A DNA stretch of 64,000 nt, taken from contig JADQAV010000020.1 of NCBI GenBank assembly GCA_019775845.1, forward strand, positions 620,001-684,000. The letters run 5' to 3'. The notes under the pieces were generated by a model that was not told where the DNA came from, did no database searches, and saw only the letters and a program-made list of their open reading frames with translations. Both the position numbers and the translations under genes were made by a program. Positions 8,815 to 52,819 of this stretch are shown one piece after another. The first letter of the stretch is position 1. Each line of letters opens with the position of its first letter. The stretch comes from Myrmaecium sp. VS I D KN 1 (taxonomy: Eukaryota; Ascomycota; Dothideomycetes; Valsariales; Valsariaceae).

Positions 8815-10494
8815 TCACTTCCCCCCCTCCCCCTCCTTCTTCCCCTCCACCTCAACCTTCCCATACTCCTCCCGCCCCACCCACACGGCGCGTCCAGGTG
8901 GGATGCGCGCGCTCGACAAATCCAACGTCTTCCAGAGCGCCAGATCCGGGAACTGCGCTGGCAGAGCGGTGGTCGCGCCCTGGAGGAGGGGTTCCAGGTT
9001 GAGCTTGACCGGGTAGACGACCCAGGGGGTTTCCGGGTGGGCGCGGATCCAGCGTTTCTTGTTCGTCTTCGATTTCGTCTTCTTTTTGGGGGAGGATGAG
9101 GAGGCGTTGTCTTCTTCTTCCTCATCGTCGTCGTCGTCGTCCGCTTCTTCTTGTTCCCAAGGGTCGGCGGGCGGGCGACCGAGGGCGGCGGCGGAGGCGG
9201 AGGTCGTTGTTGTGCCTGTGTCGTCGTCCATATCGACAATATCGTCGATATCCTCCTCCTCATCGCCTTCCTCCTTGTCCCACCCGCCTTCATACGGCGC
9301 ATTCGGATCCTTAGCTTCATCATCATCACCAACAACAGCGCGGCGCGCGCGGGAGCCCACGCGATCCGAGTCCTTCGACGCATCACCAGCCGCCTTATAC
9401 ACGCCAAAGATCGTCGGGTACGCAGCGACGCAGCCGTCGCGGGTGAAGCGCTCGGTCTTGCACAGCCAGCCCATGGCGGAGTCGATGTTGCCCTTCTCCT
9501 GCTCGCCGGCGGCCTGGTCGAAGAGGAAGCGGGCCGCGCCGCGGAGGCTCATGCCGTAGGCCGCGAAGCAGTTGAGCTGGTGGGCGAAGAAGACGAGGCG
9601 GGCGCGCGGGTTGCTCAGCGCGGGCGGGGTCAGGTTCGGTTTTCGCCACCACGTCCGCTGCTCTGGCAGGATCACGGTCGGGTCGTCCGTCTGGGAGACC
9701 CAATACGGGTTGCCTTCTTTGCGGTAGTCTTTGTTGTACACGCCGCAGTGGCCCAGCGCAAGCATATCCCAGTCATCGCCGTAGGGGGAGTGCGGGATCG
9801 GGGCGGCGGCCTGGGACGTGTCGGACTGCTCCTGCTGCTGCGCCTGCCGCTGCTGCTCCTGAATCGAGCGGGCGCCGCGGGCGAACTCGGTCATCTGCGC
9901 CTTCAGCATCACATCCCAATCGGCGTCGTCCTCGAGGATGAGGGCGGTCTGGATGCGCTCGCGGACCATGCGCTGGTAGATGTTCATGTGGGCGCGCCAG
10001 CAGCCCAGGGTGCCGACGCTGTGTTTCCAGTTGGTCGGGTAGGCCTGCGGCGCGATCAGCGACCCGTTCACCCCGTCCACGAACTCGACCTCGAGCCCCG
10101 TGAGGAAGGCGGCCAGGCTCTGGAGGTCCCGCTTGTCCGTCCGCGACGGCATCGACAGCACGAAGATCTTCTGGAACTGTATGGCGGCGTATCGGGGGTC
10201 AGCGATCGGCGAGCGGGAAGAAGGGGGCACAACACCACCAGCACCACTCACCCCGAGCGTCGCATTCTGGACGTCCTTCAAGTTATCCCACGCCGGCTCC
10301 GTCAGCTCGATGAGGGGATGCGCGCCGAGCTTAGGGGCATCGTCGTGAAGATCCGCAGCGGCGCCTTGGCGGATCGAATGCCACCCTTCCGCGACGTAGC
10401 CGGACGGTCGCTGGCTGAGGAAGAGGACGACGCAGAGGGCAGCGAAGACGCAGCCGACCGGAACGGCGACGCGAGGCTTGATCCGGTTCAGCAT
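8815..10494 (-). CDS. glycosyltransferase family 25 protein, type II membrane
   Basis: Intronless, 559 residues from MLNRIKPRVAV; an in-frame ATG at 10596 would add 34 residues, but the chosen start puts the signal anchor (GCVFAALCVVLFL, ~13-25) right after basic residues. Catalytic part: IFVLSMPSRTDKR with FVDGVNG (~115-150), GTLGCWRAHMNIYQ (~170), and TALILEDDADWD (~195), the GT25 acidic metal/nucleotide-sugar motif. Then a Gln-rich insert and LNCFAAYGMSLRGAARFLFD (~330). GT25 enzymes transfer hexoses such as galactose; a Golgi role in glycoprotein or wall glycan assembly is inferred. Unusual is a ~130-residue tail full of Asp/Glu (DDDDDDEEEED) and Lys (KKKTKSKTNKK) before a conserved-looking end (WVVYPVKLNLEPLLQG). 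Confidence 0.88.
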   Translation of the reverse strand: MLNRIKPRVAVPVGCVFAALCVVLFLSQRPSGYVAEGWHSIRQGAAADLHDDAPKLGAHPLIELTEPAWDNLKDVQNATLGVSGAGGVVPPSSRSPIADPRYAAIQFQKIFVLSMPSRTDKRDLQSLAAFLTGLEVEFVDGVNGSLIAPQAYPTNWKHSVGTLGCWRAHMNIYQRMVRERIQTALILEDDADWDVMLKAQMTEFARGARSIQEQQRQAQQQEQSDTSQAAAPIPHSPYGDDWDMLALGHCGVYNKDYRKEGNPYWVSQTDDPTVILPEQRTWWRKPNLTPPALSNPRARLVFFAHQLNCFAAYGMSLRGAARFLFDQAAGEQEKGNIDSAMGWLCKTERFTRDGCVAAYPTIFGVYKAAGDASKDSDRVGSRARRAVVGDDDEAKDPNAPYEGGWDKEEGDEEEDIDDIVDMDDDTGTTTTSASAAALGRPPADPWEQEEADDDDDDEEEEDNASSSSPKKKTKSKTNKKRWIRAHPETPWVVYPVKLNLEPLLQGATTALPAQFPDLALWKTLDLSSARIPPGRAVWVGREEYGKVEVEGKKEGEGGK

Positions 10495-11229
10495 CCTCAC
10501 TTCAGGCCCACGGGAGAAGGGCAGAACGAGACCAGACGGGCCCGACGACTCTTGTAGGATGCGAGGAATGACGGAGAAGCGAGAGATAGGTAGCAATGAG
10601 AAGGTAAAGGAGGAAGGATGGAGAGAAAGCGAGGAGAGAGGTCAACTGAAAGGCTGGGAGGTTCCCCCCATCTAGACTGTTGGATCGGCGCTGTCGCCGC
10701 CGGACTCAACCTTATTTTTCATCTGGGGAGGCGTTGGATAGGGAGATACAGAGGTGCATACTGTACATAGACATCGTCAGCGGGTGAAGGCAGAAAAAAG
10801 AGAATAATATTGCAAGCTGTTAGAATAGAATGCCCGCCGATGCGGTAAAATCACATAGAGATGCATGTGCATATGAAGTTGAAGTACATAGAGACGAACG
10901 GGTGTTGATGTTGGGGAGGACCGCGATCACGTGTGGATTGAACCCCACACCAAACGTCCCTAACCTCAGGCACGTACCCGACGTGTACTTTATATAGAGA
11001 TGATGAGTGAATTGCCCATGCATATCCGCCCGCGCCAGATCGCGCATTCGGGAAGGAGGAAGGAAGGGAAAAGCAAGAAAACAGGAACAACCGAAAACAT
11101 CGATCAACTTTTCCCTAAACATAATACTCCTCACAAATGAATATGAAAACCCTCTTACGTGAAACCTCTACCAGCATCGCCTCATCATCAGATAGAAAAA
11201 AGAAACAAAAACCCAGACCCAAACCCCCC
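10495..11229. promoter_or_regulatory. GT25 promoter and TSR1 3' flank
   Basis: Non-coding stretch between two minus-strand genes. It contains the upstream region of the GT25 gene and the terminator side of TSR1. TTTATATAGAG near 10990 resembles a TATA box, but no gene start on either strand fits it. Confidence 0.45.
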
Positions 11230-20758: not shown

Positions 20759-21871
20759 TCACATCCCCATCCCAACCCCCGCCCTCCCCGCATCCTCCCC
20801 CGGGCCCCCATCCAACCCACCCCTCCACCACGCCACCACCCCAAGCACAAACAAAACCACCAACGCATCCGCCACCACCGTATTAAAAATAATCGCATAT
20901 CGACCCAGGAGCCTCGCCCTGCCCGCCCACGGCTCCGGCAAGACGCGACTAAGCGTCCGTAAGATCTGCCCCCGACCAGGCGCATCCTGCAGCTGGCCCT
21001 TCTCCAGAAAGTAGCGGGTGGTCTGCAAAACGACCTGGGCGGTGGCGAAGAGCGGGAAGAGCGGGACGCGCGGGGGACCGACCGTCGCGGCGCGGGCCTC
21101 GGCGCTGCCGAACGCGGTGGTGGCGGAGGTGGACAGGGCGACGGAGAGGCCGAGCAGCAGCGCGATGAAGAGGTGGAGGAGTCGCCAGATCTGCGTGCTG
21201 ATGGCGGGTGGGGGTGGAGGTTGTTGTTGGGCTTGGGATTGTGGGTCGCCGCCGGCAGCGCCCATCATGGTGGTGAGGAGGGAGAGCGGATCGTTGAAGT
21301 CGGGTGGGGATCCGGGGGTGCCGTTTGGTCCTGCGCCGCTGCTACCGCCGCCGCCGAGCATTTGCTGCATCATTCGTGCCATGGCTGCGGAGGGATCGTT
21401 GGGGTCGAGGCCGGCGTCGTCGGGGGCGTTTAGGAGGTTGAGCAAGCCGCCGCCGCCAGGAAAGGGGGATGCAGTGCCGGGAGTGCCATTATTGCTCGGC
21501 GTGCGCGCGGTGGTTGCGGGACTGTAGTAATGCTGGCTGATGTCGATCTCCTCCGGGTCCTCGGCGACGGAGGCAGTTGGAGGCGCTGCTGTGCTGGCAG
21601 GGACGGTAGATGAGGCGGGCTTCGCAGTCGCTATGAAAAGGACGTCAAGTCAGCGTGACTGTGGTCGAGCTCTTGTGATTGTCCACGTACCTGTTCCAGG
21701 CTCCTCGGAAGCTGGCGCAGGTCGTCCGCTCAGTGATGTGATCGCCGCCAACCGCGTCGCTCCTCCCGCTTGAATCTTCGCATTCCGACGCTCGCGACGC
21801 AGACGAGCTTGTCGCTGTGCCGGCGTCTCATCCGCCGGTCCCGGAGAGGTTGAGGGCGATGTATCTGCCAT
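20759..21871 (-). CDS. GET2: GET complex subunit Get2-like protein
   Basis: Two exons: 21871..21691 and 21630..20759, intron of 60 bases, 350 residues. The N-terminal block RQARLRRERRNAKIQ followed by GGATRLAAITSL is the basic motif by which Get2 recruits the Get3 ATPase. A disordered middle with MARMMQQMLGG and a PQSQAQQQPPPPP linker leads to three likely membrane helices: IWRLLHLFIALLLGLSVAL (~210), a shorter one around PLFPLFATAQVVLQT, and VVADALVVLFVLGVVAWW near the end. This order (Get3-binding cytosolic head, three C-terminal helices) is that of fungal Get2, which with Get1 forms the ER receptor for tail-anchored proteins. It shares a 211-base divergent promoter with the AYR1-like gene. 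Confidence 0.88.
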
Positions 21872-25206: not shown

Positions 25207-26491
25207 TCATTCAACATACGCCTCAAAAGCCTGCAACCCCTCCTCGCCCGCTTCAAACTGCAACTCCGTCCCATGCGCAATGAAAAAGATATAGCCCTCC
25301 GACAACTCATACTCCTTCCCCTTCGCCATCAGCTTCCCCTTCCCCTTCGTAACGAACAAGATACCCGGCCCATTCACCTCCGCAATCGCCTCCGACTCCC
25401 CTTGCTTCAACGTCGTGGCTAGCATGTTGAACTCGCTCATCGGCGGGGCGTACACTTGCGTCTTGCCGTGCTTGCTCTTAGGTGATGGCTTCGGTTTCAA
25501 GAGGGCTTCTGAAGGGTCATGCGGCGTGAAGGTTAGGCAGTCGCAGAACAAGTCGGCGCTGTTGCGGTCCGCCGTGGGACAGAAGCCGGTGTTGAGAACG
25601 TTGTCGCTGCGGGCCATACATTCGACGATGTCTCCAGCGAGGTAGGCGTGGATGCCGTCGGCGGGGATGTAGATCGCATCGCCTGCCGAGAGCTTGAGGT
25701 AATTCATGGTGATTAGGGCGACAAGCGAGCCCGGGTCGGTCTTGCCATACTGGTTCTGGAGGCGAGGAAGTAGCTTGGGGATGTATTCAGCGTTCTTGAA
25801 CGCGTCCGCCGGCAGCTTCGAGAGCGCTTCTTCGGTTTGCTTGATGGTCGATTCGTCGGCCGTCAGCATGCTGTGGACCACGTGCTTGAGGACTTGGTTG
25901 TCGAATTTGGCCTTCTTCACTTCCGGCATGAACCGCTGGAGCGGTTCCAGCTTCATGGTCTCGGCAATATCGTCGAGCGGACGGAAACCGACAAAAGCCT
26001 CGAACTCGCCCAGCGCGAGAGCAATCTCCGGCTTGTGGTTGGGGTCGGTGAAGTTGTCCGGGTCTTTGCGGTGCAGCTCCGCCGCCACGGACTTGTCAGG
26101 ATGCAGTTGTAGCGGCAACGCCTTCGCGATGGACAGGATCTTTGGCAGATAAGGGAGGTTTGTGTGTCCGAATTTGCGGATCACGTTCTGGCCGACGAGC
26201 TCATTGGAATGTGCGTCGATGACTTTCTGTAGCTCTTCACCGGTTGCGAGTACTTGAGACGGCAGCGTGGGATATGTGCCCATCCACCTGGGGAAGATCG
26301 CTGTCAGTTGACGTGAATGCAAACGGAATCCGCGCGCCCACTCACATCTCCGCGTATGAAGTATCCTCATCGATCTTGAAGTCCGTCCCGGGCGTCTTCG
26401 AAGCCAAGACGGCGGATAACGATTGCGAGCCCTGCTTGCCCCATGGATATTGATTGACGTTACACTTGAGCTGGATCACTGACTCCGGCAT
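25207..26491 (-). CDS. mannose-6-phosphate isomerase (type I)
   Basis: Two exons: 26491..26346 and 26287..25207, intron of 58 bases, 408 residues. It interconverts fructose-6-phosphate and mannose-6-phosphate, the entry to GDP-mannose for cell wall and glycoprotein mannose. Visible family marks: NQYPWGKQGSQS (~12), YAEMWMGTYPTLPS across the splice (~47), LPLQLHPDKSVAAELH (~110; Q and H bind zinc), HKPEIALALGEFEAFVGFR (~140), GDAIYIPADGIHAYLAGDIVE (~270) and SDNVLNTGF (~295). Length is normal for fungal type I enzymes. Codon use is more balanced than in neighbours, as expected for a well expressed gene. Confidence 0.96.
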
Positions 26492-30338: not shown

Positions 30339-30340
30339 NN
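30339..30340. other. two ambiguous bases (NN)
   Basis: Follows a run of ten G. Looks like an unresolved homopolymer or a closed assembly gap. Confidence 0.95.
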
Positions 30341-32287: not shown

Positions 32288-33106
32288 GGGGGTTGGAAGG
32301 TGTTGCGGGTGTGAGTAAGGAAGGGGGCAATGAATTCTTTCAGCGTCGCGTGTTGGGTGTTCGGAGCTTGGGACGCTTAGTACCCGGTCATCAGGAGAGG
32401 AGGAAGTGAATATCAGATCACCGCGGTTATGGATGGAAAGTCAAGACTAAAGAAGGGAAAGAAGAAGAAGAATCAGAGGAAAAAAAGGAGAGCGGCCGGC
32501 CGCATTGAAGCAACATATCATAATGGACCAATCGCAATCGGGGGTCAGGATACGTCAGAAAGAGGATGAAAGGCGAACGATGTGAAAACAACGTATTATC
32601 AATGAGTTTGTAGAGATCAAGCGAATTGTAGCGAATATGACTTATTTTCTGAAATTTTTGAGAAGATGTTCATCAGCGTTCTTTTCTTTTGACAATGAAT
32701 TGGAGAAGCAGAAAGTATGACTAGATGCCGATTCTCCGAGGAACTCCATGCGGCTATTAGTGAATTTGAATGTCCGAAGAGGTTATGATGCTGTAAACGA
32801 GCATCGAATCATGCTGCTGCTGTTGCTGTTGAAGCTGTGTGGTGGTGCTTGTGATACGGAGCAGTCTGCCAGTCGCTGGCACACTGGGGCCATTACTACG
32901 GAGCGATCCGTTAAACGTCCCACGCCAAGACTTCACACACCGGGGGCAGAACCTCAACATCCTCTCTTCCCCGAAAACGTCCATCTCGACGGTCCACGGT
33001 CCACCCATAAACCACCACACAACCCGGCCAGCAATAGGGGAGTGTGGAAGACGACGGACTCCATTACACCAATTGCCACCGATCCATCCTTCCACCGCGG
33101 CCGGCC
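32288..33106. promoter_or_regulatory. intergenic region, MFS to MRPL24
   Basis: About 0.8 kb with A/T-rich DNA at 32560-32720, MRPL24 upstream sequence to the right and a CTGCTGTTG run near 32815. No gene seen. Confidence 0.45.
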
Positions 33107-34012
33107 ATGGCGTCCACCCTGCACCTCACCCTCCGCGGGCTCCGCCTGAGCGCGAGCAGCACCAGCAGCAGCAGCACCACCTATCTCCAGACCCGACTCT
33201 TCAGCAGCACCCGCACCCTCCTCGCCTACAAAGGCCCCCGGCCCAGCAAAACCCTGCAACCCCGCCAACGCAAGCTCCTCACCAAACCGCACGAGCGGGG
33301 GCTACCCGCCGACCTCCCCAGCTACCTACACGACGCCTGGCGCCGGGCCAACAAAACCGGTCGACGGCTGCTGCGCGAGCACGCCGACGTGCCCGCCTAC
33401 CCCTACGGCCGCACGTACGTCTACAACCAGGCGAACTGGGGCCTGTACGGGGGCCAGCGGAAGCAGTTCGGCAACAACGTGTCGCGCAAGACGGAGACGA
33501 AGACGCGGCGGCACTGGGACGTGAACGTGCGGCGGAAGCGGCTGTTCAGCGTGATCCTGGGCCGGCACCTGCCGCTGCGGGTCTCGGCGCGGGTGCTGCG
33601 GACGATTGATAAGGTGGGGGGCTTGGATGAGTATTTGCTGGGCTCGTCGGCGCCGGGCAGGTTGAAGGAGTTGGGTATGGCGGGGTGGAAGTTGAGGGCG
33701 GAGTTGATGAGGCATCCCGAGACGAAGAGGAGGTTTCGTCGGGAGGCGCTGGCGTTGGGTTTGCCGGCGGAGAGGGTGGAGGCGTTGTATGGGAAGGAGG
33801 TGGAGGAGGCGGAGCGGCAGGCGGGTGGCCAGGAGGCGGAGGGTGCGGAGGCCCAGCAGCAGGAGGATCCTCGTGGTGCGGTTGTTGCTGAGCTTGAGAG
33901 GCTTGCGATTTCGGTTGAGAAGGCCCCGTTGCCGGGCTTGATGGAGGTTTCGGGCGCGACTGGCATTCCGAAGGGTCCTGAGGCGCTCAAAGCTCCTACT
34001 TTGGGCATTTGA
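33107..34012 (+). CDS. MRPL24: mitochondrial large ribosomal subunit protein bL28m (Mrpl24-like)
   Basis: Intronless, 301 residues. The start at 33107 (MASTLHLTLRGLRLS) gives a Ser/Thr/Arg-rich, acid-free presequence of ~40 residues (TRLFSSTRTLLAYKG). The core has GRTYVYNQANWGLYGGQRKQ, FGNNVSRKTETKTRRHWDVN and VRRKRLFSVILGRHLPLRVS, then ARVLRTIDKVGGLDEYLLGS, which is the L28 domain as found in yeast Mrpl24. The tail (~215-301) is rich in Glu/Gln/Ala and variable. It is a structural protein of the mitochondrial 54S subunit. Composition shifts sharply from C-rich to G-rich codons at ~33600. Confidence 0.93.
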   Translation: MASTLHLTLRGLRLSASSTSSSSTTYLQTRLFSSTRTLLAYKGPRPSKTLQPRQRKLLTKPHERGLPADLPSYLHDAWRRANKTGRRLLREHADVPAYPYGRTYVYNQANWGLYGGQRKQFGNNVSRKTETKTRRHWDVNVRRKRLFSVILGRHLPLRVSARVLRTIDKVGGLDEYLLGSSAPGRLKELGMAGWKLRAELMRHPETKRRFRREALALGLPAERVEALYGKEVEEAERQAGGQEAEGAEAQQQEDPRGAVVAELERLAISVEKAPLPGLMEVSGATGIPKGPEALKAPTLGI

Positions 34013-39157: not shown

Positions 39158-40028
39158 GCTCCGTGATGGGGATGGGGGAGTGATGGTCATGTGGAATGGG
39201 GAGCGTTGTGAAGAGGGAAGCGGTCTCGGTGGACAGCCCATATCATGCTCCCATATGCGAGCGGTGCATGGTCTGGGGATCACACTTTGCTGAAGACAAC
39301 GAACGTTGTTGCACTTTGACAGACGTCTATCAAGACAGCAAATGTCTATCAAAGCAGCAAGTAGTTCCCAACGTCACGCACATGGTAGACACTTCCAACC
39401 ATCATCACAACCCCATCCGACTACCTCATATACAACGCAAAAAAAGATAAGATAATATGTACGCTGCCATGGTTTTCCAGTACATCATGCGCGAATCGCA
39501 TCTGTTGAGGCTAGAATATGGCGCGCCGGGGCCCCTCCATCCTCCGCCGAGCTCACCCGATTGCCCAAGAAAGACAACCGGGGGGCTCAAGGCATCAGAC
39601 TTCGCGGAGAGGAAAAAGAATACACCCAGTGTTGCTCTGAGACCTGTCGACCGGACATTGACACCAAGTCTAAGCGACGGGATGGCTCCATAACGATCGG
39701 TCGAACTGTCGCGAGCAATCAACCGAACCAGTCCCCTCCGAAGAGGAGACGGCCCGGGATCGCTGGACACAGGTCTGTTGTTTTGATGAAGAGAAAAGAA
39801 GGGAAGTTGTCTGGCGGAAAAGTTTCTTTTATGGATGGCCGGCGGGTGCTGGGCTTGGCGCGCTAAAAGAGCAGGGCATCGCACGGACCACCTGCTTAAC
39901 GACGACCGACGTCGACTGCAGCGTACTCGACGTCTGGCAAGTTAACCACCTTCACTCCTCGACGTTCTGTCAACCACACCCCCATTTGCACGGTTCTCTT
40001 AGGCTTACAAAAGCCTCTGTCCGTCAAA
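39158..40028. promoter_or_regulatory. intergenic region, PTH2 to SNU66
   Basis: About 0.87 kb. A 152-residue open frame on the minus strand (39426-39884) has no domain and is not called. The right half is the SNU66 promoter. Confidence 0.45.
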
Positions 40029-42077
40029 ATGGACGCACTCAGCATCGAGGAGATCAACAAGATCCGCATCGCAGCGGGGGCGAAACCGCTCCCGGTCCCC
40101 GGTGCCGCCACTCCGACGACCGCCTCCGACGGTCCCACCTTCAAAGCCACCAAAGCCGACGGCGATGCCTCCGACAAAGAGGCCGCAAGCACGCTCGAGA
40201 CGCGCTCCGCGGCGAGCTACGACAACTGGAAGAAGCTCGAAGAGGAGCGCAAAGCGAAAGAAGCGCGGGAGGCGCGCAAGGAAGCCCTGAAGCGGGCGCG
40301 CGACCGGGCGCAGCGGTTCGCCACGCTGGAGGGCAAAGGCCTGGGCGAGAGCGAGGACGCCGAGCTGGACGCGAAGGCGTGGGCGGCCAAGTTCGGGAAG
40401 CGGCAGAAGAAGCTGGAGCGGGAGCGGGCGCGCAAGCTGGCCGAGGAGCAGGCGGAGCAGGAGCGCCTGGCCGAGCTGCAGTATACGGCGGCGGACTTGG
40501 CCGGGGTGAAAGTGGCGCATGAGTTGGGCCAGTTTGAGGAGGGGGAGGAGCAGATTTTGACGTTGGCGGATAAGGCGGTGGATGCGGAGGATGAGGAGGA
40601 TGAGTTGGTGGCGACGACGTTGAGGGAGAGGGAGATGTTGCGGGAGAGGTTGGAGTCGAAGAAGAGGAAGAGGGCGTATGATCCGAATGATGTTGATGAG
40701 AGTGGACAGGGGACGATTCTTGCGCAGTATGATGAGGAGATTGAGGGCAAGCGGCGGAAGGTCTTTACGCTCGACGGCCAGGGTACGGCGAAGAAAGAGG
40801 ATGTGGATGCGTCGATGGAAGATGCTGCCAACGGTCATCGTGGCGTTCGGATCCGCCTGGATGATCTGAACGAGGAAACTCCCATCTCCGACTACGTCGA
40901 CCCGTCGGAAGTCAAAGTCCGCAAGCCGAAGAAGAAGAAGGCCAAGGCCAGCAAGAAGAAGATCGCCGACGACGACGACATTTTCCCTGCCCCCGAGCCG
41001 AAGCAGACAAACGGCAACATGGATGTGGACACACCCGACGGCGCGACGCCTGCTCCCCAACCCAAGCGCGTCAATTTCGATGAAGATGTCATCGATGACG
41101 ACGACCTGCAGGCGCGTCTTGCCGCACAACGCAGAGCAGCGCTGAAGCAGCGGAAGAAGACGCGCCCAGAGGACATCGCGAAGCAGCTGAAAGAGGAGGG
41201 CTCGGCGACGCCGGCCGCGGTCGAGTCGGTGGAGAACGACGAGGAAGAACCGGGCTTGATCATCGACGAGACGTCGGAGTTCGTCGCGCACCTACAGCGG
41301 CCGTCGGCTGCGCCCGAGGACAAACCGCGTCGCAAGTCAACTACGCCTGGTCGCACTCCCGGCCGCACCCCTGGCCCCGCTTCCCCCGACGTCGACGGCG
41401 ATGTCGACATGGAACAATCATACGCCGAGGCAGCCGAGCCGGAGGAAGGTCGGGAGCGCGCCCAGCGCGACTCGACCGCGCCGGCGGACGTCCCGGCAAC
41501 CGGGCTGGAGGAGGAAGCCACGCTGGACCAGGGTGTGGGATCAACGATCGCGATGCTCAAGCAGCGCGGGCTGATCAAGGAGCAACACGGAGCGGAGCTC
41601 ACGCAGAGCTACCTCGAGCGGCAGCGCTTCCTGGCAGACAAGCAAAAAGCGGAGGAAGAAGCCGAGCGGCGTGCGCGCGCGCAGCGCGAACGGGACCGCC
41701 AAAGCGGCCGGCTGGACCACCTCTCGACGCGCGAGCGGGAGGAGTACGCGCGGCAGAACAACGCGCTGCGGGACCAGGTGGAGGCGCGGCGGCTGGCGGA
41801 GATCTTCAACCAGGAGTACAAGCCGAACGTGGAGCTGAAGTACGTGGATGAGTTCGGCCGACGGATGGGCGCGAAGGAGGCGTTCAAGCATCTGTCGCAT
41901 CAGTTCCATGGGAAGGGGTCGGGGAAGCAGAAGACGGAGAAGAGGCTGAAGAGGATTGAGGAGGAGAGGAAGCGGGAGGCGATGAGCGCGTTGGATAGTA
42001 GTCAGCATACCGGCATGAACTCGGCGATGACGGCGACGAGTAAGAAGACTAGGCAGGCGGGGGTGCGGTTGCAGTAG
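40029..42077 (+). CDS. SNU66: U4/U6.U5 tri-snRNP protein Snu66 (SART-1 family)
   Basis: Intronless, 682 residues. The first residues MDALSIEEINKIRIAAGAKP form a HIND element, the Hub1-binding motif of Snu66/SART-1. Long charged helical stretches follow: SYDNWKKLEEERKAKEARE (~65), AKAWAAKFGKRQKKLERERA (~118), YDEEIEGKRRKVFTLDGQG (~238), then linkers with Lys/Asp repeats, and the conserved C-terminal part GVGSTIAMLKQRGLI (~500), VELKYVDEFGRRMGAKEAFK (~605) and LSHQFHGKGSGKQKTEKRLK. It helps activate the spliceosome from the tri-snRNP. Lack of introns in a splicing gene of this locus is worth noting but not strange. Sure of the family. Confidence 0.96.
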   Translation: MDALSIEEINKIRIAAGAKPLPVPGAATPTTASDGPTFKATKADGDASDKEAASTLETRSAASYDNWKKLEEERKAKEAREARKEALKRARDRAQRFATLEGKGLGESEDAELDAKAWAAKFGKRQKKLERERARKLAEEQAEQERLAELQYTAADLAGVKVAHELGQFEEGEEQILTLADKAVDAEDEEDELVATTLREREMLRERLESKKRKRAYDPNDVDESGQGTILAQYDEEIEGKRRKVFTLDGQGTAKKEDVDASMEDAANGHRGVRIRLDDLNEETPISDYVDPSEVKVRKPKKKKAKASKKKIADDDDIFPAPEPKQTNGNMDVDTPDGATPAPQPKRVNFDEDVIDDDDLQARLAAQRRAALKQRKKTRPEDIAKQLKEEGSATPAAVESVENDEEEPGLIIDETSEFVAHLQRPSAAPEDKPRRKSTTPGRTPGRTPGPASPDVDGDVDMEQSYAEAAEPEEGRERAQRDSTAPADVPATGLEEEATLDQGVGSTIAMLKQRGLIKEQHGAELTQSYLERQRFLADKQKAEEEAERRARAQRERDRQSGRLDHLSTREREEYARQNNALRDQVEARRLAEIFNQEYKPNVELKYVDEFGRRMGAKEAFKHLSHQFHGKGSGKQKTEKRLKRIEEERKREAMSALDSSQHTGMNSAMTATSKKTRQAGVRLQ

Positions 42078-48694: not shown

Positions 48695-49369
48695 TCACGC
48701 CTCATCCCGATAAAACCGCCTCAGCACCTTCTCCACGTCGCGAAACTCCTGCTTGGCCTGGGCGATGGTGGTGCGGAGGCGGTCCAGGCTCTTGTCGTCG
48801 TCCGGCTCGTCCTTGGTGCCCGTCTCGTCCTTGCGCGCGCCGAAGTGCTGGATCTTCTCGCAGCTGTCCTTCACCTTCGTCAGCCCGAGCGTGGCCGACG
48901 AGCCCTTGAGGAAGTGGCCCAGCGAGGAGAGTTGGGCGAGGTCTTTTTCTTTGCTGTGTGGAGGGAGGGGGGGTTTGGTTAGTGACCATTTTGTGTCTCT
49001 ATTGGGTCTGTGGTGTTGGATGGGTGGGAGGGGGGTGTCTGCTTCTACACCGTCGGTAGGGAGATGGATGAAAGGGAAAACATACATGCTAGTATCCATC
49101 TTGGTAAACGTGCTCTCCGCCTGCGTGAAGAAGTCATACACGATGCTCTTGCTGAACTCGCGCTCCTCCTCATCGTCATCCATCTCGAGGATCTGCTCGA
49201 AGGTCGCGTAGTCGATGCTGTCGCCGAGGTCGGCCGGCAGGCCGGTCGAGCCGGTCTCGCTCTGCTGTTGTCGGAAAGAAGGAGTCAAGTCAGCGTTGAC
49301 CGTTGTTGTTGTTGTCCTCCCATCACCCCCGTGTCTTGTATGTACCTTGTCCTCTTCGCGGCCGGGCAT
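48695..49369 (-). CDS. YPD1: histidine-containing phosphotransfer protein Ypd1/YpdA
   Basis: Three exons: 49369..49346 (MPGREEDK), 49264..49086 and 48953..48695 (introns of 81 and 132 bases), 153 residues. It passes phosphate from hybrid histidine kinases to response regulators Ssk1 and Skn7 in osmotic and stress signalling. The HPt four-helix core shows IDYATFEQILEMDDDEEERE and FSKSIVYDFFTQAESTFTKM, then LSSLGHFLKGSSATLGLTKV, where the His of LGHFLKGSS is the phosphorylated residue (~96). A final helix (AKQEFRDVEKVLRRFY) closes it. An acidic insert (KDEPDDDKS) sits in the last loop, as in other fungal Ypd1. The first acceptor is a CAGCAG tandem site. Confidence 0.95.
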   Translation of the reverse strand: MPGREEDKVHTRHGGDGRTTTTTVNADLTPSFRQQQSETGSTGLPADLGDSIDYATFEQILEMDDDEEEREFSKSIVYDFFTQAESTFTKMDTSMYVFPFIHLPTDGVEADTPLPPIQHHRPNRDTKWSLTKPPLPPHSKEKDLAQLSSLGHFLKGSSATLGLTKVKDSCEKIQHFGARKDETGTKDEPDDDKSLDRLRTTIAQAKQEFRDVEKVLRRFYRDEA

Positions 49370-49471
49370 GATGTTGTTGATGATGTTGTTGTCTGATCGG
49401 TTGTGTATGTAGGTAGTCGGGGGTTGTGGTGTGAGGTTTTTTTCTTCTTCACGTTGCGGGGCGCGAACGGT

Positions 49472-49494
49472 GGTCGGTCGGTCGGTCGGTCGGT
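49472..49494. repeat. (GGTC)n microsatellite
   Basis: Five to six copies about 100 bases before the YPD1 start codon on its gene strand; a shorter copy recurs at 49817-49832. Confidence 0.9.
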
Positions 49495-49556
49495 ACGGTA
49501 GGGTCGAGTCGAGTCGAAGAAGAAGGGTGTTTGGTAGGTAGAGTAGGTATGGAGGA

Positions 49557-49576
49557 AGGATGGATGGATGGATGGA
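49557..49576. repeat. (ATGG)n microsatellite
   Basis: Four copies in the YPD1 upstream region. Confidence 0.85.
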
Positions 49577-50651
49577 AGAGCTGGAACGATCGGGGCCGTC
49601 GTAAGGATACTACTACTCTGCTCGGCGTGCGAGGGGGTTGGGTAGGTGGAGAAGAAAGTATGGGAGAGATGGAAGTGAAGAGGGGCAGGTAGGTGGGTGG
49701 GGGAAATCAAACAGGCTTTCGGGGTAGTATCTGCAGGGAGAGCAGCCCCGAGGGAAAAAAAAACGCCAGCAACGGGTAGGGCTGTCGAAAACGGGACGGA
49801 TGGACACAGCGGACGGGGTCGGTCGGTCGGTCGAGAAGGGGAGGGTGGGAGAAAGGGCCGGCGGGTAACAAGCAGTGCAGGTGGGTGGGAGGCGGGAGGG
49901 GGAGGGGAAGGGGAGAGGTTGACCTGTCCTGACCTGTCCTGTCCTTCGCCCAACACCAACACCAACCAACGGACGGGCACACCACACACCCAAACCACCT
50001 ACGAAGAACCTAACTCCTAGCGGGTGTTCGAGAAGCAAAAAAAAAAGCGAAAAAGCGCTGATGTGACTTGCCGCGGGGGCACACACAAACCCTTCGGCTG
50101 AAAAGAAGAAAAAAAAAGCTGCACTGGTCGCTCCAGCCGCGGGCCCCACCACCAACGGGTGTTACGCAGGATGGAGGATGGAGGATGGAGGGGTAAATGG
50201 ATGGATGGTACGCCGCTAGCCGAAGAGAGGTGTGAGTAGCCGACGGCGACAGCGACGACGAAGACGCTGTCACGACGGGAGGTATGAGCTGAATTGAATC
50301 AAGTACTGCGAGGAAGACCGAACAGGTTGCTCTAGCTAGGGAAGACGTCGCGCGCACGAGTACAGTACATACGCCTACAAAGATGCGGTTTCCCAGCGAA
50401 AAGGGGAGCGAAGGTGGGGGGGATGGGCGGTCAGGTCGCTCTCAGGCTGCACTCAGGCCGCAAGTCTGGGTGGCTGGTATATAATAGCGACGATCAGGGT
50501 GAATGATGATGATGAAATACAACCTATCACGACCCCCGGGCCGTCAAAGCAAAGCAGCTTTTTAACGAAGGGAATCCAACGGTAAACGGCCGATCTTCAT
50601 AACCACCTCAAAGACATGTGCCGGTGGTGATCGAGATTTAAAAAAGAAAAG

Positions 50652-50681
<30 letters not shown>
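50652..50681. repeat. poly(A) tract, 30 bases
   Basis: Uninterrupted A-run preceded by AAAAGAAAAG. No target-site duplication or retroposon body is visible beside it, so I treat it as a simple repeat. Confidence 0.95.
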
Positions 50682-51142: not shown

Positions 51143-52819
51143 TTAACCCTTGACCTTGTAGATGGCCTCAGCAAGGCGCTTGACGTTGCCAGACGTGATG
51201 CCAGCCACGGAGATACGGCCGTCCTTGGTGGCGTAGACGGAGTGCTACAGAAGTGGTAAATGTTAGCAAAACCAACCCCAATCTTCAACTTCCCAAAAGG
51301 GCTTGCCAGGAAACGGCAAGAAGAAAACATACCTCCTTCGCCAAAACATCCATCTGCTCCGGCGTCAAGCCAGTATACGCAAACATGCCAATCTGCGAGG
51401 TGATATGGCTCCAATCATGCGCGCTCCCCAGCTTCTCCAAATTCTCCTTCAGCAACGCACGCATTGTGATGATGCGGTCCGCCATACCCTTCACCTCGCC
51501 CAGCCACTGCCGGTTCAAGGCGGGGTCGTTGAGGATCTCGGACGCGAGCCGGGCGCCGTGCACGGGCGGGTTCGAGTAGAACGGCCGGACGAGGATCTTG
51601 ATCTGCGAGTCCACCCGCTTCTTCTCCTCCGCCGACTCGCAGACGATCGAGAAGGCGCCGACGCGTTCGCCGTAGAGACCCTGGGTGCGTGGGGTCGGTT
51701 GGTTAGAGAGAGATCAAGCGTGCAGCGAACGGGGAGAACGTACCATGTTCTTGGCGAAGCTCTGCGCGAGACACGGGCGCAGACCCTCGCTGATGAAGTG
51801 CCGGACGGCGAAGGCGTCCTTGTTGGTGTCGCCGCTGGCGAAGCCCTGGTAGGCCATGTCGAAGAAGGGGTAGTGCTCGCCGTCCTTGACGGCCTGGGCG
51901 ATCTCCTTCCACTGCTCCGGCGTCGGGTCGACACCGGTGGGGTTGTGTGCGCAGGCGTGGAGCAAGACGATGCTGCCCTTGGGCATGGCCTTGATGTCGG
52001 CCACCATGCCCTCGAAGTCGAGGCCGATGGTGTCCTTGTTGTAGTAGCGGTACTTCTGGACCTTCAATCCCGAGTCCTGGAAGACGGCGTTGTGGTTTGC
52101 CCAGCTGGGCGTGGGGATGTAGATCGTCTTGTCACCGGGGTAGTGGCGCTCGAGGAAGGCACCACCAATTCGCAGAGCACCGGTACCGGAAATCGACTGG
52201 GTGATGGCAACGCGGTCTTCTTTCACCGGAGCGGACTCCGGACCGTAGGCCAGGAGTGCAGCAGCCTTGGTGAATGCAGGGATACCGGTGATGCCGGCGT
52301 ATTCCTTGTCCAGTTCGTCCTTCACCACCCTCTTCTCCGCCTCCCGCACGGACGGCAGCACGTAAGGCTTGCCCTGGTCATCACGGTATGCGCCAACGCC
52401 TGAGCTCGATTAGATGCTGCGACGGAGCGACGCGTGCGAAACGGGGTTGTCGCAACGTACCGAGGTTGATCTTCTCGGGGTTGGGATCGGCCTTGAAAGC
52501 TTCGGTGATACCTGTCGGATGATCAGCAAGGTAGTCAGAGTAGTATATACGGAATGTGCGTCTTACCCAAGATCGCCTACAAGTGAGGCATCACCGTGAG
52601 CATCGTTCTCGATCAACTGATTAGACGGGGGAGAAGGGACATACATCCTGTGTTCGGTCAGCAATGGGGTGGAGGATAGCTTCACGCGGCTCGTGCTTGA
52701 CTCACAGGAGGACCCTGGGGAACCTTGGCCCAGACCGAGACGGTCCTTCTGGCGGCGGCTGCGAGGGAGAACTGCTTGGAGACAGCCTGGCGCACGGCGA
52801 CTCTCGAGGAGGACAGCAT
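51143..52819 (-). CDS. aspartate aminotransferase, mitochondrial
   Basis: Seven exons: 52819..52706, 52647..52645, 52576..52567, 52511..52461, 52399..51744, 51680..51333 and 51244..51143; 427 residues. It swaps amino groups between aspartate and 2-oxoglutarate (malate-aspartate shuttle). The N-terminus ([20 protein letters not shown]) is a mitochondrial presequence. Core: [20 protein letters not shown] (~65), [18 protein letters not shown] (~210), [15 protein letters not shown] (~245) and LAQSFAKNM (~273), whose Lys binds pyridoxal phosphate and sits at an exon end; then [10 protein letters not shown] and [14 protein letters not shown]. Exons 2 and 3 are only 3 (GAT) and 10 bases. Joining them gives VPQGPPD-AILG-ITEAF, matching the conserved PPDxILGxTEAF of the family. 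All introns are 55-88 bases. Confidence 0.95.

Follow-up and report, generated by a model that had tools for sequence, protein, structure and literature searches.

The stretch of DNA analysed here, 64 kb in all and hereafter called the window, carries on its minus strand a gene for a mitochondrial aspartate aminotransferase (AAT) in which one predicted coding exon consists of just three bases, GAT. Judging from the sequence, we put at about 0.92 the probability that the mRNA of this gene contains GAT as an exon, and constitutive inclusion is the most likely form that this would take. Of the splice models tried, only the one with the micro-exon restores the conserved protein sequence; GAT would supply the one conserved Asp in the PPDxILG segment. 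We regard it as a well-supported prediction and not as a new kind of system.

The aminotransferase gene runs from 52819 to 51143 on the minus strand and comprises seven coding exons (Table 1), which join without internal stops into a complete mitochondrial-type enzyme of 427 residues. Its introns measure 55–88 nt, and GTRNGT fits five of its six donors. Four whole introns lie within 306 bases near the coding 5′ end (52400–52705, minus strand), and the exon that follows them is 656 nt long. Pfam Aminotran_1_2 (PF00155) matches residues 55–422 of the predicted protein with an E value of 7.5e-92, and the solved mitochondrial AAT chain 3hlm_A aligns without gaps over residues 28–425 (573.3 bits). 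Mitochondrial AATs are the best solved relatives of the enzyme, at up to 573.5 bits. Among the best 60 of 85 PDB matches, the top six chains score 546–574 bits; four of these are named mitochondrial, and the other two, 1ama and 1aka, are named aspartate aminotransferase without that word and are presumably the chicken mitochondrial enzyme. Cytoplasmic AAT chains reach no more than 420 bits among the same 60 matches, where two chains named mitochondrial, 4eu1 and 4w5k, also score lower (388 and 387 bits). The N-terminus, which precedes the part alignable with mature enzymes, is basic and rich in Ser and Ala and is presumed to act as a presequence. Tryptic digestion of the predicted spliced enzyme would release the peptide VPQGPPDAILGITEAFK.

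Table 1. Predicted exons and introns of the aspartate aminotransferase gene, listed in the direction of transcription with window coordinates.
Feature	Position	Strand	Remarks
Coding exon 1 (114 nt)	52706..52819	-	Presumed presequence and start of mature enzyme; last residues ...KVPQGPP
Intron 1 (58 nt)	52648..52705	-	GTGAGT donor, CTGAC branch site (10 nt after its A), CAG acceptor
Micro-exon GAT (3 nt)	52645..52647	-	Asp39 of the 427-residue predicted protein
Intron 2 (68 nt)	52577..52644	-	GTATGT donor, TAG acceptor
Coding exon 3 (10 nt), GCGATCTTGG	52567..52576	-	
Intron 3 (55 nt)	52512..52566	-	GTAAGA donor, CTGAT (11 nt after its A), CAG acceptor
Coding exon 4 (51 nt)	52461..52511	-	
Coding exon 5 (656 nt)	51744..52399	-	
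Coding exon 6 (348 nt)	51333..51680	-	
Coding exon 7 (102 nt, stop codon included)	51143..51244	-	

Other features of the window were noted alongside the gene. Antisense to the aminotransferase exons runs a stop-to-stop frame of 378 residues (51267–52403, plus strand), perhaps a shadow of codon use, and a 30-base homopolymer (A on the plus strand) lies downstream of the gene at 50652–50681. A Pfam scan covered 30 of the 106 listed open frames of the window. On the minus strand, open frames match glycosyltransferase family 25 (8815–10641), GET2 (20759–21649), phosphomannose isomerase type I (25207–26475) and the Hpt domain (48695–49609). The plus strand has an open frame at 39900–42077 that covers the whole SART-1 profile (1.6e-181), SART-1 (Snu66) being, we assume, a tri-snRNP splicing factor, and one at 33038–34012 for the mitochondrial ribosomal protein bL28m, whose best match is chain 6ywe_S (2.8e-40), which we take to come from the Neurospora crassa mitoribosome. 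A Zn(2)-Cys(6) cluster domain is also present elsewhere in the window. This domain, the bL28m match and the short introns of the aminotransferase gene, with their GTRNGT donors and CTRAY motifs, give the window a fungal look; it probably comes from a filamentous ascomycete, in which the AAT gene would be nuclear.

GAT is flanked on both sides by complete splice sites. The original prediction had placed the end of exon 1 at ...GGT CCT CCT, and this proved exact when checked base for base. The remaining boundaries that it gave were likewise found in the sequence: intron 1 reads GTGAGT...CTGAC-CGAACACAG, GAT comes next, intron 2 opens with GTATGT and closes with CTTGTAG, and the 10-nt exon is followed by GTAAGA. 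The two flanking introns have the lengths that it gave, 58 and 68 nt, and the consequence that it foresaw for skipping of GAT also holds, in that joining exon 1 straight to the 10-nt exon leaves an open, in-frame product that reads PPAILG and is one residue shorter.

We listed all linear combinations of one, two or three GT-AG introns, each 40–160 nt long, that lead from the end of exon 1 to exon 4. This gave 285 models (46 with one intron, 189 with two and 50 with three), of which 52 are open and in frame (2, 38 and 12, respectively), and a single model of the 285, that with the 3-base exon, produces the motif P[DN]x[IVLM][LMF]G. A wider enumeration added GC-AG and AT-AC introns, extended the lengths to 35–170 nt and allowed removal in any order, including nested removal. 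Its open, in-frame products number 2, 224 and 757 after one, two and three steps, and the motif appears in none of the 2, none of the 224 and one of the 757, the one again being the 3-base-exon model; with no other motif-bearing product, non-canonical introns are ruled out as an explanation. The spacing between VW and ITEAFK is 11–14 residues in seven linear models and 12 in the skipped form. Three other linear models that have the family spacing of 13 were rejected: each depends on one or more poor donors (GTCCTC, GTCTAA, GTGATG or GTTCCC), and all lack the motif. The proposal that GAT supplies the Asp of the family is thus upheld as the sole model tried that has the motif, and the family spacing is kept.

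The expectation that the family has an Asp at this position was confirmed in bacterial homologues and in mitochondrial AAT chains. In all five displayed PDB alignments, each to a mitochondrial AAT, the query GPPDAILG stands opposite GPPDPILG, although the five chains are closely related to one another and not independent witnesses; the yeast chain 1yaa is also among the PDB matches. Asp also occupies the aligned position in 80 of 82 homologous loci, a set made up of 2 loci from viral contigs and of 80 bacterial homologues that are the best 80 of 568 relatives, come in many cases from few genera and are not independent witnesses; the other 2 of the 82 loci end before the position and have no letters there. 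The two viral-contig relatives are 45 and 50% identical, and both are cut off before the N-terminus. All of the best 80 of the 568 relatives from prokaryote contigs are titled bacterial, and no fungal contaminant was found among them; the 82 loci together thus include no fungal orthologue. Ranking of the 52 open models with a profile built from the 80 bacterial homologues alone put the 3-base-exon model first, at 508.6 bits, and the skipped form sixth, at 499.9 bits, or 8.7 bits below the included form. The five top-ranked models all include GAT together with its GTATGT donor.

The splice signals around GAT were scored as donors with frequencies from 2,022 Fusarium introns (excerpt of PMC5677156). 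Nine GTs occur in the 129-nt gap between exon 1 and the 10-nt exon, and the two that score above 0 are the two that the micro-exon model uses. The donor of intron 1 at 52705 scores 2.32, which ranks it within the top 3.3% of all 6,926 GTs that the window has on its two strands and makes it the lowest of the gene's six donors; that of intron 2 at 52644 scores 4.26, within the top 0.92% of the same 6,926, and is the strongest in the gap. Each of the gene's five introns other than intron 2 has a CTRAY with 10–22 nt after its A, and CTRAY is reported in 91% of the 2,022 Fusarium introns (excerpt of PMC5677156). Near the acceptor of intron 2 there is no CTRAY: the intron's sole copy, CTAAT, has 44 nt after its A, and two copies of CTCAC have 20 and 7 nt after theirs. 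The branch site of intron 2 is the weakest point of the micro-exon model, and this weakness bears equally on skipping because the same acceptor is used.

Chance expectation was gauged by shuffling the 129-nt gap by dinucleotides 20,000 times, in a setting in which the end GT and AG were fixed and both introns were at least 45 nt long. YAG-GAY-GTRNGT arose in none of the 20,000, AG-GAY-GT in 0.33%, AG-NNN-GTRNGT in 0.32% and the bare AG-NNN-GT in 12%, for patterns that were picked post hoc with the site already seen. Both strands of the 64 kb together hold six copies of YAG-NNN-GTRNGT. The full architecture, defined as a CTRAY no more than 25 nt upstream, a GTRNGT donor 45–110 nt upstream and, on the downstream side, a YAG one intron length away, is present at one of the six, the GAT site.

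These features suggest a route by which GAT could be spliced into the mRNA. The gene would have two ordinary short introns three bases apart, the ends of each being recognised together across the intron (intron definition). In filamentous ascomycetes, splice sites are reported to pair in this way (excerpt of PMC6616335), and under such pairing recognition of a short exon as a whole is unnecessary. With three bases between them, the 3′ complex of intron 1 and the U1 snRNP of intron 2 would lack the room to bind together; that a tiny exon cannot hold both complexes has been argued for plant micro-exons (excerpt of PMC8831610). Intron removal would be sequential because spliceosomes cannot occupy both sides of three bases at once. 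Intron 1 would probably be excised first, given that its branch site and acceptor are canonical and the branch site of intron 2 is poor. Its removal would join GAT to exon 1 and leave the GAT/GTATGT donor intact, and this donor would next pair with the TAG at 52577. Because GAT would fill exonic positions −3 to −1 of the intron 2 donor, that donor would be complete whether before or after the loss of intron 1.

Several other readings of the site can be weighed against the micro-exon. If the gap were removed in one step as a single 129-nt intron (52705–52577), GAT would be no exon and the enzyme would read PPAILG without the Asp. Such an intron has GTGAGT and TAG ends, keeps the product open and in frame, and dispenses with a 3-nt exon altogether. 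Its product, however, would drop a residue found in 80 of the 80 homologues that have letters there and in 5 of the 5 displayed PDB alignments, would be one residue shorter than its homologues and scores the 8.7 bits lower given above. The intron itself would be longer than the gene's others (55–88 nt), would leave idle the acceptor that follows CTGAC (CTGAC...CACAG) as well as the gap's strongest donor, and would draw no advantage from the branch-site argument, as it relies on the same weak branch region. We consider this reading very unlikely. A regulated cassette, with GAT included or left out according to condition, would give two enzymes that differ by one Asp and no early stop. Skipping is frame-neutral and costs one residue, whereas retention of intron 1 or intron 2 leads to early stops, and there are reports of a glucose-dependent micro-exon of 20 nt in Trichoderma virens (excerpt of PMC11121469) and of a 15-nt exon that is skipped in rtnA of Aspergillus niger (excerpt of PMC6616335). 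The Asp, though, is invariant among homologues with letters there, and for that reason a skipped form would likely be a defective enzyme or noise. We think regulation of this kind unlikely; as a sub-case of the reading of GAT as an exon, it adds nothing to the 0.92.

Stwintrons of the Pezizomycotina resemble the GAT site in having two short, near-abutting introns that are removed in consecutive steps under intron definition (excerpts of PMC5639578 and PMC6616335), and intron 1 might accordingly be imagined to interrupt one of the splice elements that belong to an external intron, leaving no true exon between the two. In a stwintron, one intron interrupts the donor, branch site or acceptor of the other, a definition that does not describe GAT, where three coding bases stand between two complete introns. 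GTATGT lies wholly downstream of GAT, hence no donor is interrupted, and the enumeration with nested removal yields no other motif-bearing product. This reading is highly improbable. An assembly error or a pseudogene would make GAT an artefact that happens to sit between good splice signals. A single sequence was read, which leaves room for such an error, yet no damage is seen in the other exons, the alignment of the protein to 3hlm_A is free of gaps over the residues given above, and the window's N bases, two in all, lie far off at 30339–30340; an artefact is scarcely credible.

Inclusion of GAT as an exon, the reading that we prefer, can be set beside micro-exons described elsewhere. Those of Schizosaccharomyces pombe were reportedly tested by Romfo et al. 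in 2000; as GAT would be, they are handled by a spliceosome with intron definition, and those of this fission yeast may include equally short ones. The shortest fungal nuclear exons that we found reported are 6, 15 and 20 nt long. One further fungus for comparison is the basidiomycete Phanerochaete chrysosporium. Its P450 genes, like the AAT gene around GAT, have very short exons among short introns, the shortest being 6 bp (excerpt of PMC1184071). The micro-exon of Xlr2 in Trichoderma virens is, like GAT, from a filamentous ascomycete, and it was missed by the automatic gene model; it differs in being 20 nt long, glucose-dependent and part of a transcription factor gene, and the product without it loses the DNA-binding domain (excerpt of PMC11121469). 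According to its authors, in the same excerpt, no functional micro-exon of a filamentous fungus had been described earlier, and S. pombe alone had provided experimental tests of fungal micro-exons. The 3-bp exons of fungal mitochondrial genomes have the size of GAT but are organellar, with introns that are not spliceosomal (excerpt of PMC12308204, citing Xavier et al. 2012). Among the matches listed from the open-licence literature, searched by title and abstract start, we found no report of a nuclear 3-nt fungal exon, which is weak evidence of absence. Among ten listed of 475 matches, no title or abstract start named a fungal AAT gene. Two fungal papers with suggestive wording were set aside: the "3-bp exon" of PMC8379801 is a piece of a larger second exon, and the "exon of 3" in PMC10744626 comes from exons of 399 and about 300 nt.

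Micro-exons are spliceosomal exons of small size, as a rule 3–30 nt, and ones of 1–3 bases are known in plants (excerpt of PMC8831610) and animals (excerpt of PMC7392893). The original prediction had placed three bases near the lower limit of what spliceosomes define; this stands in a qualified form and not as an absolute, 1-nt exons having been validated in plants. The 1-nt micro-exons of plant APC11 and VPS55 resemble GAT in being ultra-short and in lying in a conserved gene, and were absent from annotations; their authors argue that the flanking introns compete, both complexes being unable to fit on so small an exon. They differ from GAT in their smaller size, in their RNA-seq and RT-PCR support and in their conservation among land plants (excerpt of PMC8831610). 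A 3-base exon is also documented in Drosophila homothorax, where, as with GAT, one codon is added and the frame is kept. In that animal gene, the 3-nt exon is an alternative to a 48-nt exon that starts with the same three bases (excerpt of PMC7392893), whereas for GAT no longer exon form restores the motif among the models tried.

Gene finders and short-read aligners that are unable to place 3-nt exons would give an AAT without its conserved Asp, and the mistake could then propagate from one database record of a fungal AAT protein to others. Tiny exons are easily overlooked in gene annotation. GAT could be an old exon conserved in many filamentous ascomycetes, left by introns one codon apart, that forces a fixed splicing order and gives a one-residue-shorter isoform without an early stop; we offer this broader idea tentatively and lean against it. 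Were it true, every other nuclear spliceosomal exon on record for filamentous fungi would be larger than GAT, whose arrangement would be structurally one step from a stwintron. The site would provide a concrete test of splicing order, because both introns cannot be assembled at once. If GAT is present in the mRNA, a fungal spliceosome that works by intron definition copes with a one-codon exon in a housekeeping gene.
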